64,000 nt of DNA. Origin: Pseudanabaena sp. UWO311 (GTDB lineage Bacteria > Cyanobacteriota > Cyanobacteriia > Pseudanabaenales > Pseudanabaenaceae). The stretch lies in NCBI RefSeq assembly GCF_006937785.1, contig NZ_SJEE01000014.1, positions 1-64,000 of the forward strand, in the 5' to 3' direction. The position numbers and the translations under genes are program-made. The notes below the pieces were generated by a model. It did no database searches. It was not told where the DNA came from and was given only the letters and a program-made list of their open reading frames with translations. Shown one piece after another: positions 15,196 through 17,982 of this stretch (position 1 is its first letter; every line of letters begins with the position of its first letter).

Positions 15196-15484
15196 AATGT
15201 GACGATCGACAAATCGCTTAGGGGCATAGCATTACCACAGCCATCTATCAATTTTAAGATTCCCTTGATTTGGGAATGCTTTGCCCACAACCTCACAACG
15301 CAGGGACAATTTATCAGTGAAAGCGAAGAGGGTTATGCATTTGCGAATAAATATGGTCATGGTGTGTTGAGAAATTGTGGCGCAAATGCAAAACCCCTAC
15401 ATCCGTGAAATCCATTAATCCGTCTAATCTGTGTTCTAGCGGCGAGAGGGGAAAAGAGAAAGAAGGGTAAAGTGAAAGTTGTCC
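15196..15484. other. Non-coding stretch downstream of the caspase gene
   Basis: No gene is supported: a 69-codon plus-strand frame at 15199-15408 starts with GTG and has no recognisable family. 15410-15440 contains ATCCGTGAAATCC and CCGTCTAATCTG, wording typical of old cyanobacterial intergenic repeats. 15445-15480, read on the minus strand after the caspase stop, is a long pyrimidine tract. No reverse transcriptase or template repeat is found here. Confidence 0.4.
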
Positions 15485-17626
15485 TTACGACAAGACAGAG
15501 GCAACAACCCGAAAACCGGCCTTGATGACCACCCCGTCATCCGCGTGCCACCTACGACGATGCGCAGAACGACAACTGAACGCATAGTATTTAAAAGAAC
15601 CACCACGGAGAAGCCTTTGACCCTGTTCACCGCCATCTAGCCAAGCAGAGCCATCTTGTGGGATTCCATTATAGTTTTCATGCCAGATATCTTCGCACCA
15701 TTCCCACACATTACCATGCATTTGATATAAACCCCATGCATTTGGTGAGAAGCTCTCAACATTAACAGTCTTTTGGCGATATTCTCCTTTTGGCGCATCA
15801 CCATAAGGAGCATTACCGTCATAGTTAACTAGATCAGGAGTAATCGTCTCGCCAAAATGAAAAGGAGTAGTTGTGCCAGCACGACAAGCATATTCCCATT
15901 CAGTTTCACTAGGCAATCTAATCGATTTTCCTGTTTTCTCCGAAGCTTTCTTGCAGAATTCTTTAGCATCATCCCACGAAACGCCTACCACTGGCTGGCT
16001 ATCATATTGTTTTGATGGCTTCGTTCCCATTATCGCTTGCCACTGAGCATTAGTGACAGTATATTTCCCCATCCAAAACTCTTTCAAAGTTGCTTCATGG
16101 ATAGGCTGTTCAGTGGAATATTCATTGCTTCCCATCATGAATTTCCCCGTAGGAATCCGCACCAGAACTAGAGTTACGCCATTGGCTAGATTTTCTCGAA
16201 TATATTGCGCTTTTCCTTTTTTACGCTCTAACTCAACTTTAGTTTTCGTGCCAAGCCCCAGAAAACCACTACTTTCTTTAACCAAACGGACTTTGAGAAT
16301 TTCAAATTCAAATTCTGGTTGAACAGGTTTACTCTTGCGTTCAGCTTCCTCTCGTTGACGTTTTCGCCGCTCTTCCTCTTCAGCTTGTCTTTTCAATTGC
16401 TCCAATAGAGAAAGCCGATCCTGTTCTTGCTTCTGCCTCTCCGCTGCTGCGACTTGTTGCAATCTCAATTGTTCAGACTCTTCTTGCTGCCGATTCAATC
16501 TTGCAGCCTCAGCAACCTTTTTCTGTTGATCCTCAAACAATCGATCATGTTCAGTCTGTCTTGGTTCAAAAATGCGTTCCTTAACTTCTTTAATATCATT
16601 TGGACGCAGACCAAAATCAATCTCGCAATTCTCTATTTCTAATTGTGTGATTTCGCTAAAGGGAAACTCATGTTTAATCGTTTCCTTAATAAGACTTTCA
16701 TAGGCTTTGAGGTTGTTGTCATATTCTATAAAAGGTTTTAAAATTTCTTGTTCAATCTCTAGAGCATCAGTCTCAACGATTTTATATTTGAGCTTTGCAT
16801 TAATGATTAACTGACGAGTAGCGGGAAATATTTTACCGTTTCGGAAAGAAATAATTTTAGTAATTTCCTTCCGAAACTTAAGCTTGGGATCATCTTGAGC
16901 AGCCCTTGCTAATACGATCCGATGTCCCTCTTTTACTGGATAAAACTCTGGCGACATATTATTATTCGCACTCTTCACCTTATCCCGCACATACTCATAC
17001 AACTCATCCACCGATACATGCCCATCATCATCTCGATCCGCCGCACCTGTCCGCAATCCTTCTACCAAAAAATGCGTATAGAGCGACAACTCAAAACCCT
17101 CTTGCTCAAACGCATATTGAGTCGAATCCGAAGCCGTCAAAATCGCCCGACCTTCACCACCCAACTTCGGCAACAGATTCGCCATCCCAATATCTTTTGC
17201 CGTCATTCCCGTAGGAAACGCCCCACTATGGCAACAGTCCAAAATCACTACTTGACGCTTAGATCGGCTCTGATTCATCAAACTGTGGACATAAGTTGAT
17301 GAAACTGCTGTTGGCGGCAAAGCATCCTTGCGCGTTTTTGTCCCTGTAAAATAAAAATCATTCCGACTGTCAGTCACCCCATGTCCAGAAAAATACAAAA
17401 GCAACAAATCATCAGTTTTACGATTAGCGAATAGATCGTAAATCGCTGACTCGATCGCCCCTTTCTCTGCATCCACCAATACCGCCACATCCAACTCCGC
17501 AAAGCCACCAATTTCAGGATTAACCAAAACTTGCCGCAGAGCCTCAACATCCTTCGCTGCACTAGGCAAAGGCTTAAGATCGACGGTGTAATTACTAACC
17601 CCAACTAGCAATGCATATCGTCCCAT
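15485..17626 (-). CDS. Orthocaspase with C-terminal FGE/C-type-lectin domain
   Basis: 713 aa. Residues 1 to about 240 are a caspase-fold (C14) domain with the dyad H82 (YFSGHGV) and C132 (LDCCHSGAF); bacterial members cut after Arg or Lys. About 370-450 is a charged coiled coil (EERRKRQREEAERK). About 475-710 is a formylglycine-enzyme-like C-type-lectin domain (IPTGKFMMGS, TNAQWQAIMG, LPSETEWEYACRAG, GNVWEWCED, LLRGGSF, CRSAHR, GFRVV). Only one late Cys is present, so true FGE catalysis is unlikely and ligand binding more likely. The last 40 codons resemble a retroelement-diversified variable region. Its ATG overlaps the stop of the EACC1 gene (TAATG), implying coupled translation. Confidence 0.88.
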   Translation of the reverse strand: MGRYALLVGVSNYTVDLKPLPSAAKDVEALRQVLVNPEIGGFAELDVAVLVDAEKGAIESAIYDLFANRKTDDLLLLYFSGHGVTDSRNDFYFTGTKTRKDALPPTAVSSTYVHSLMNQSRSKRQVVILDCCHSGAFPTGMTAKDIGMANLLPKLGGEGRAILTASDSTQYAFEQEGFELSLYTHFLVEGLRTGAADRDDDGHVSVDELYEYVRDKVKSANNNMSPEFYPVKEGHRIVLARAAQDDPKLKFRKEITKIISFRNGKIFPATRQLIINAKLKYKIVETDALEIEQEILKPFIEYDNNLKAYESLIKETIKHEFPFSEITQLEIENCEIDFGLRPNDIKEVKERIFEPRQTEHDRLFEDQQKKVAEAARLNRQQEESEQLRLQQVAAAERQKQEQDRLSLLEQLKRQAEEEERRKRQREEAERKSKPVQPEFEFEILKVRLVKESSGFLGLGTKTKVELERKKGKAQYIRENLANGVTLVLVRIPTGKFMMGSNEYSTEQPIHEATLKEFWMGKYTVTNAQWQAIMGTKPSKQYDSQPVVGVSWDDAKEFCKKASEKTGKSIRLPSETEWEYACRAGTTTPFHFGETITPDLVNYDGNAPYGDAPKGEYRQKTVNVESFSPNAWGLYQMHGNVWEWCEDIWHENYNGIPQDGSAWLDGGEQGQRLLRGGSFKYYAFSCRSAHRRRWHADDGVVIKAGFRVVASVLS
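15490..15610 (-). other. Candidate DGR variable region (VR) in the caspase gene
   Basis: Read on the minus strand, constant-looking islands RGGSF, CRSA.R and GFRVV flank codons such as CAT CGT CGT AGG TGG CAC GCG GAT GAC GGG GTG GTC ATC AAG GCC. These are more GC-rich and more heterogeneous than the rest of the gene, as expected if template AAC/AAT-type codons had been adenine-mutagenised. The stop and a pyrimidine tract follow directly. No template repeat or reverse transcriptase is in the window, so any such element would act from elsewhere. Confidence 0.45.
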
Positions 17627-17982
17627 TATGCAGCCTCAATAAATTCCTTAGCCTTCTGCATCGCAAACTCCAACTCTTCGCGGCTACTAGCACTCACCTT
17701 CAGTTTCTTGCCATTGCCCTCCACCTCAAACGAGATCGGCTTATTACCAAGGCGATCGCCTAAAAAGCCCAAAACTTTTTTCGCATTCGCCACACTCACT
17801 TCCGCCATCAGCACTCCCACCAAAAAAGCACCACCGCTCTTATTGCCATCTGGTGGATTGGGGTCACGCACACGGTCTACTGCATCAATATCACTACGAT
17901 CACTTAATTCTTCCAGCAACCTTACTACCTCATCATCTCGCTCTTCACTCTTCAAGTCTGGATCGGTAAAGGTAATCGTCAA
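17626..17982 (-). CDS. EACC1-type effector-associated component
   Basis: 118 aa. It resembles the effector-associated constant component 1 (EACC1) family known beside caspase, trypsin-like and other effector genes in predicted biological-conflict systems: an N-terminal beta strand (MTITFTDPDL), a helix (VVRLLEELSDRSDI), a PPDGNKSGG glycine stretch, a second helix, and a beta-beta-alpha end (ISFEVEGNGKKLKVSASSREELEFAM). The biochemical role is unknown; it may regulate or recruit the effector. It is the upstream gene of a two-gene unit with the orthocaspase, with TAATG overlap. Confidence 0.75.
   Translation of the reverse strand: MTITFTDPDLKSEERDDEVVRLLEELSDRSDIDAVDRVRDPNPPDGNKSGGAFLVGVLMAEVSVANAKKVLGFLGDRLGNKPISFEVEGNGKKLKVSASSREELEFAMQKAKEFIEAA

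Follow-up and report, generated by a model that had tools for sequence, protein, structure and literature searches.

The gene at positions 15485..17626 (minus strand) of the analysed window, a stretch of 64,000 nucleotides from Pseudanabaena sp. UWO311, encodes a caspase fused to an FGE domain, and its last codons look like the variable region (VR) of a diversity-generating retroelement (DGR) target. This raises the question of whether a DGR wrote this segment and, if it did, where the reverse transcriptase (RT), Avd and the template repeat (TR) are now. The reading that we consider very probable is that this caspase-FGE fusion is a true target of a DGR, that adenine-directed mutagenic homing produced its VR, and that RT, Avd and TR are gone, leaving an orphan VR fixed in one version. 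The orphan VR is homologous to active-looking cassettes, its divergence is biased towards adenines, and the machinery is absent from the assembly.

Caspases as DGR targets and remnant VRs without a nearby RT are already published. Orthocaspase variable proteins and remote variable proteins are described in cyanobacteria by Vallota-Eastman et al. (2020, PMC7517822), who also report a remnant VR with no RT nearby and suggest that the machinery is removed after a good variant has been found. The orthocaspases described there are like the window gene in having a 3'-terminal CLec/FGE VR, a caspase at the N-terminus and remote targets; in PCC 7120, however, two DGRs remain in the genome according to that study, whereas no DGR was found in the assembly of the window genome. 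Less expected than a caspase target or a remnant VR is the pyrimidine tract, often followed by a hairpin, that was observed behind VRs and not behind TRs. In what follows, genomes carry G numbers (G000 is the window's own genome), and the profile and pattern searches across the genus covered 26 genomes.

The caspase-FGE gene and its EACC1-like partner

The 713-aa protein begins with a caspase (Peptidase_C14) domain (aa 3-225; 16952..17620, minus strand), recognized by PF00656 with an E-value of 6.4e-19. The motifs SGHG and DCCHSG are visible in it, and we take these to be the motifs with the catalytic His and Cys. The domain matched the NCBIfam family NF047832, 'caspase, EACC1-associated type', with 183.7 bits against a cut-off of 140, while a PDB sequence search with it returned nothing at E 0.001. 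The FGE domain (aa 488-708; 15503..16165, minus strand) was recognized by PF03781 (E 1.5e-53), and its PDB sequence matches include the Treponema denticola variable protein 1 (2y3c, E 7e-19). From the family and these matches we infer a C-type-lectin/FGE fold for the VR-bearing domain; an AlphaFold model of the domain, built from four sequences, had a pLDDT of 46.7 and was too poor for use. The VR lies inside this domain at the 3' end of the gene, as in DGR targets, the fold being assigned by sequence matches.

Directly upstream of the caspase-FGE gene lies a gene of 118 aa (17626..17982, minus strand), which we regard as an EACC1-like partner; it matched Pfam EACC1 (PF19953) with an E-value of 0.0015 and 18.9 bits, under the cut-off of 23.6, and had no match in PADLOC. 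A two-gene EACC1-caspase conflict system was described by Kaur et al. (2020, PMC7159879), and the arrangement in the window is alike: a small EACC1-like gene comes first, and the gene after it combines an N-terminal caspase with a variable C-terminal module. The NF047832 match assigns the window caspase to the EACC1-associated type that belongs to this system. The same paper ties DGRs to VMAP-ternary systems with vWA-FGS fusions, and a DGR-varied FGS was not seen in its section on EACC1.

The closest ortholog, with 87% amino acid identity, is found in the genus mate G023; a wider search of genome contigs for related loci gave 12 relatives, the best with 63% identity and none nearer than the genus mates. 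Between the window and G023, dN/dS was 0.09 for the caspase, 0.21 for the linker, 0.11 for the FGE domain before the VR and 2.15 for the VR (25 VR codons compared). Judged from these ratios, the protein is under purifying selection outside the VR, and the intact ORF and the low dN/dS there indicate that it is still used.

Extent and composition of the variable region

The VR, homologous to the template repeats of genus mates, extends over about 15484..15613 (minus strand), with limits taken from the VR and TR of G023. The first-pass annotation had placed it at 15490-15610, which is the right region, although the VR is a little longer. The motif RGGSF..CRSAHR..GFRVV that this annotation reported at the extreme C-terminus of an FGE fold was confirmed: the terminal peptide of the ORF is RGGSFKYYAFSCRSAHRRRWHADDGVVIKAGFRVVASVLS and lies within the PF03781 domain. 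The hypervariable codons are numbers 678-703 (15518..15595, minus strand).

For comparison we used 95 sites, from which identical sequences had been collapsed and which are not phylogenetically independent. They were split by peptide pattern after inspection into 49 VR-type sites, 13 TR-type sites and 31 conserved FGE paralog sites, with two (L069 and L166) set aside; in one of the 13 'TR' sites (L038, close to the edge of a contig in G008) part of the codons are not those of a template. The RGGS-GFRV span is 33 aa long at 91 of the 95 sites and 34 aa long in the window gene, which also has F in place of W after RGGS. At the IMH-like end of the VR (15481..15488, minus strand), the window has GTAAGGAC where 23 of 48 VR sites have GTGAGGAC, and the same change turns the stop codon from TGA to TAA. 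Private non-adenine changes in the VR were found in 6/56 columns for the window, 4/54 for G012, and 0/50 and 6/56 for the two copies of G019 (on C38 and C101, respectively). The 34-aa span, the W to F change, GTAAGGAC in place of GTGAGGAC and the absence of the hairpin described below suggest that the window VR is idling, but a different lost template could also explain them.

The rise in GC-rich codons pointed out by the first-pass annotation is real, with a GC content of 0.53 in the VR stretch against 0.43 in the whole gene. As proof of a DGR variable region it was rejected, since 24 of the 1899 117-nt segments of the gene that are clear of the VR also reach 0.53; the value is unusual in the gene, not unique.

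DGR cassettes in the genus

RTs of 349-384 aa with the motif GLP(L/I)GNLTSQ were found in 11/26 genomes by the RVT_1 search, part of whose matches were inspected for the motif. The bAvd profile was above its cut-off in 10/26 genomes, and a TR-type pattern occurred without mismatches in 11/26 genomes and, at one mismatch, in a further two; the reversed control gave 0 hits. Orthologs of the caspase-FGE gene adjoin an RT or a cassette in five genomes (G006, G007, G011, G016 and G023). In G023 the cassette is complete, and the gene order is a small upstream ORF, the caspase-FGE gene with its VR, the TR, bAvd (PF22296, E 1.1e-19) and the DGR-type RT.

When VR and TR were compared within nine cassettes from eight genus mates, mismatches stood at 141/273 template adenines and at 1/870 other bases, which is the adenine-specific signature of a DGR, shown here in relatives of the window gene. 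The expectation of the first-pass annotation that mismatches are confined to template adenines holds for these cassettes.

Two further observations concern decay and repeats around such loci. In G005 (L212, C1:1604000-1615000) there is a decaying DGR, in which a TR-type repeat is present and RVT_1 matches only an open frame of 149 aa; no DGR RT motif was found in this stretch and no bAvd in G005. In the window, 15204-15400 resembles a dispersed repeat, with related, reversed copies in the neighbourhood of the DGR cassettes in G016 and G011.

Adenine bias of the window VR

Compared with the best genus TR, that of G023, the window VR differs at 16/28 adenines and at 11/71 other positions, besides a 3-nt insertion that was set aside; here mismatches are not confined to adenines. 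The Fisher value of 6e-5 for this comparison is flattered by the choice of the best of 13 TRs and 34 gap places, and with the same best-TR procedure one conserved FGE paralog gets to 3e-4. In this test conserved FGE paralogs have at least 20 non-adenine mismatches and the other VR-type sites 0-22, so that the classes touch; 13 VR sites have no non-adenine mismatch to a TR of the set. The TRs of other genomes differ from the G023 TR at 10-17 of the 65-69 common non-adenine positions, and the 11/71 of the window are therefore within expectation for a different template. A different template, since lost, may account for them instead of decay.

The bias is stronger when VRs are compared with one another, the adenine positions being taken from the G023 TR. 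The window VR and the G019 copy on C38 differ at 24/28 adenine and 7/71 other positions of the VR, and at 3/86 positions downstream (Fisher 2e-18). The corresponding differences are 20/28, 12/71 and 5/86 for G012, and 20/28, 13/71 and 4/86 for the G019 copy on C101, which is the positional ortholog of the window gene by its place beside glmS. In three groups of conserved FGE paralogs (14, 8 and 4 sequences) the ratio of adenine to non-adenine divergence was 0.68, 0.30 and 0.27; adenine positions diverge less than others in these groups, and the reverse holds in the window VR. The comparison of close strains that the first-pass annotation called for is thus adenine-biased, and together with the cassettes of the genus, this divergence mainly at template-adenine positions supports its view of the caspase C-terminus as a DGR-type VR.

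Search for the DGR in the window's own genome

The absence calls that follow rest on a draft assembly of 5.2 Mb in 61 contigs that is 99.98% complete. No DGR-type RT was found in it by the RVT_1 profile search, whose sole match is a retron-type RT, and tblastn with a genus DGR RT found only this same locus (E 0.002). A BLAST search with the VR for a TR in this genome found the VR itself alone, as did a 63-nt adenine-tolerant pattern built from the window VR and allowing at most 3 mismatches; the pattern should work because 13 VR sites have no non-adenine mismatch to a TR. Extended to 38 genomes of the family (63 nt, at most 3 mismatches), the search for a TR able to have written the window VR again gave only the VR itself. 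The genus TR pattern was absent from the window genome, and no bAvd/Avd was above cut-off there. The same RT, TR and bAvd searches do recover DGR parts in genus mates. An RT with a template repeat in the genome, on which the first-pass annotation had made its proposal depend, is therefore missing from the assembly, where there is only a retron-like RT and no TR.

Two candidates for DGR parts in this genome were rejected. The RT at C55:75267-75905 (L011 6707-8161) has an N-terminal extension and the motif LPQGAPSSP instead of LP(L/I)GNLTSQ; its best PADLOC model is RT_XIII (E 7e-198), and its best NCBIfam matches are retron families, though under their cut-offs. A bAvd match of 22.9 bits (cut-off 40) at C55:173436 was set aside as well, as similar weak matches occur in G004, G012 and G019, in which no DGR-type RT was found.

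In a glmS tree the nearest genomes are G012 and G020, followed by G019 and G014. The RVT_1 search found no DGR-type RT in G012, G019 or G014, and found one in G020, with a different template family, which makes the loss of the DGR look recent and perhaps repeated.

The window genome holds two more VR-type genes. At C16:77826-78614 (L003 778-2304; L093 8517) there is a second orphan VR-type gene, an nSTAND1-FGE fusion, whose VR differs from the TR of G015 at 15/28 adenines and 8/71 other positions. The third, at C1:170033-170689 (L008), is a VR-type FGE ORF of 353 aa with 13/71 non-adenine mismatches; a caspase-like ORF (229 aa, recognized by eye only) overlaps its start in another frame, and this may be a single caspase-FGE gene interrupted by a frameshift, or a pair of neighbouring genes.

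Pyrimidine tract and hairpin behind the VR

The pyrimidine tract noticed after the VR in the first-pass annotation is present at 15441..15480 (minus strand), where 35 of 40 nucleotides are C or T. Over the 60 nt after the stop codon, the mean C+T share was 0.75 at the 49 VR-type sites (range 0.52-0.87), 0.49 at the 13 TR-type sites and 0.50 at the 31 conserved paralog sites. In the pattern counts, for which 48 of the 49 VR sites were used (one was dropped for its short tail), a short G+C hairpin with a T run stood behind 21/48 VR, 0/13 TR and 0/31 paralog sites; this pattern was written after inspection of the flanks, and other, often longer hairpins behind conserved paralogs are uncounted by it. 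GTGAGGAC was found behind 23/48 VR, 3/13 TR and 0/31 conserved paralog sites. The two other VR-type genes of the window genome, on C16 and C1, retain both tract and hairpin.

The window gene itself has only part of this arrangement. At the site of the G023 hairpin TCGCC(GTTA)GGCGA (15430..15446, minus strand), other DNA has taken the place of the right arm, and the 150 nt from the stop codon on contain no perfect inverted repeat of at least 5 bp with loops of 3-8. The window, G012 and both G019 copies have a downstream junction in common, CTCTCGCCG(T/C)TAG then AACACAGATTA(G/A)ACGG, at the place where G023 has its hairpin, and in neither the window nor G012 does a cassette separate the VR from the gene that follows.

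For BPP-1, efficient homing depends on a hairpin located 3' of the VR (PLoS Genet 2011, PMC3240598), and the order of VR and hairpin there is alike. The phage-related hairpins of that report lie 4-34 bp from the VR, whereas those of the genus start 62-104 nt after the GFRV codons with the pyrimidine tract in between, and the window copy has none. From their position behind VRs but not TRs, tract and hairpin may be candidate homing signals, or else terminators. Our literature search found no paper joining DGRs with polypyrimidine or with Pseudanabaena.

Discussion

How the orphan VR came to differ from its relatives is the point on which the alternatives divide. The first is that VR alleles were exchanged by homologous recombination with DGR-bearing strains and that the window lineage itself never edited the gene, which we consider possible, if doubtful. 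The body of the gene is indeed mosaic between relatives: the window and G012 have a caspase dS of 1.6 although their flanks are 93% identical, and against the G019 copy on C38 the caspase dS is 0.22 and the FGE dS 2.5, with the G019 C38 FGE domain as the divergent one. Recombination has therefore contributed, and import of the VR from DGR-bearing strains may explain part or all of the pattern. In several pairs, however, the divergence changes near the 3' end of the VR, as expected from homing, and a DGR is still needed as the ultimate writer.

The second alternative, that a DGR on a plasmid or other DNA not captured in the assembly still edits the VR in trans, seems improbable to us. Cyanobacterial plasmid records, from Fischerella, Microcystis, Anabaena, Nostoc and Acaryochloris, carry relatives of the G023 RT, the best five at 54.6-58.5% identity. 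The two G019 copies show 1 difference over the 140 nt that follow the VR, yet within the VR they are unlike at 19/28 adenine and 7/71 other positions, and no DGR-type RT was found in G019. Against these stand the completeness of the window assembly, without a DGR RT, a TR or an above-cut-off Avd, and the 3-nt insertion, the IMH-like change and the missing hairpin, which suggest idling. The remote DGR of the first-pass annotation is acceptable only as history, or if it lies on such uncaptured DNA; for the genome as assembled, with no DGR-type RT and no TR, it is not supported. In Thiohalocapsa PB-PSB1 (PNAS 2024, PMC10907252), as described there, target loci likewise lack their own machinery, degenerate loci occur, some targets are diversified in trans and one (DGR1) showed no diversity; unlike in the window genome, complete DGR loci are present elsewhere in that genome.

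That the gene merely has an ordinary FGE domain, with RGGS..CRSA.R..GFRVV as a family motif and ordinary divergence, is very improbable: the motif is common to paralogs with no sign of DGR action and at a few VR-type sites the number of non-adenine mismatches (up to 22/68) comes within the paralog range, but the paralog ratios of 0.27-0.68 are opposite to that of the window and the closest ortholog sits in a cassette, so that we regard this reading as already refuted by the VR/TR counts of the nine cassettes and the paralog comparison.

Under our preferred reading, that of an orphaned DGR target, a DGR would formerly have varied the binding surface of the FGE domain. The tip of this domain would be the sensor and the caspase the effector, the tip binding a ligand (a phage or self signal) and triggering the caspase with the EACC1-like partner. 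After the cassette beside the gene had been lost, the VR was probably rewritten in trans, or else replaced by one from strains with a DGR. The cassette-less relatives that share the junction differ at VR adenines, a pattern compatible with former trans editing once the locus had lost its cassette, but also with recombination. Once the DGR was lost, the working variant would have been kept by ordinary selection.

A broader picture, which we put forward tentatively and think rather unlikely, is that Pseudanabaena populations share DGRs: VR genes without a cassette would spread and be rewritten in trans by a transient, perhaps plasmid-borne, DGR that recognizes the pyrimidine tract and the distant hairpin, and lineages that afterwards lost the DGR would be left with working receptors in a frozen state, the EACC1-caspase of the window among them.

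If the orphan reading is true, a receptor that used to mutate itself no longer does so, while its genus mates keep the machinery beside the same gene. Such an orphan VR makes testable the published suggestion that DGRs are discarded after a useful variant has been obtained. The tract and hairpin behind VRs, and not behind TRs, would be candidate homing signals for cyanobacterial DGRs that can be tested directly.
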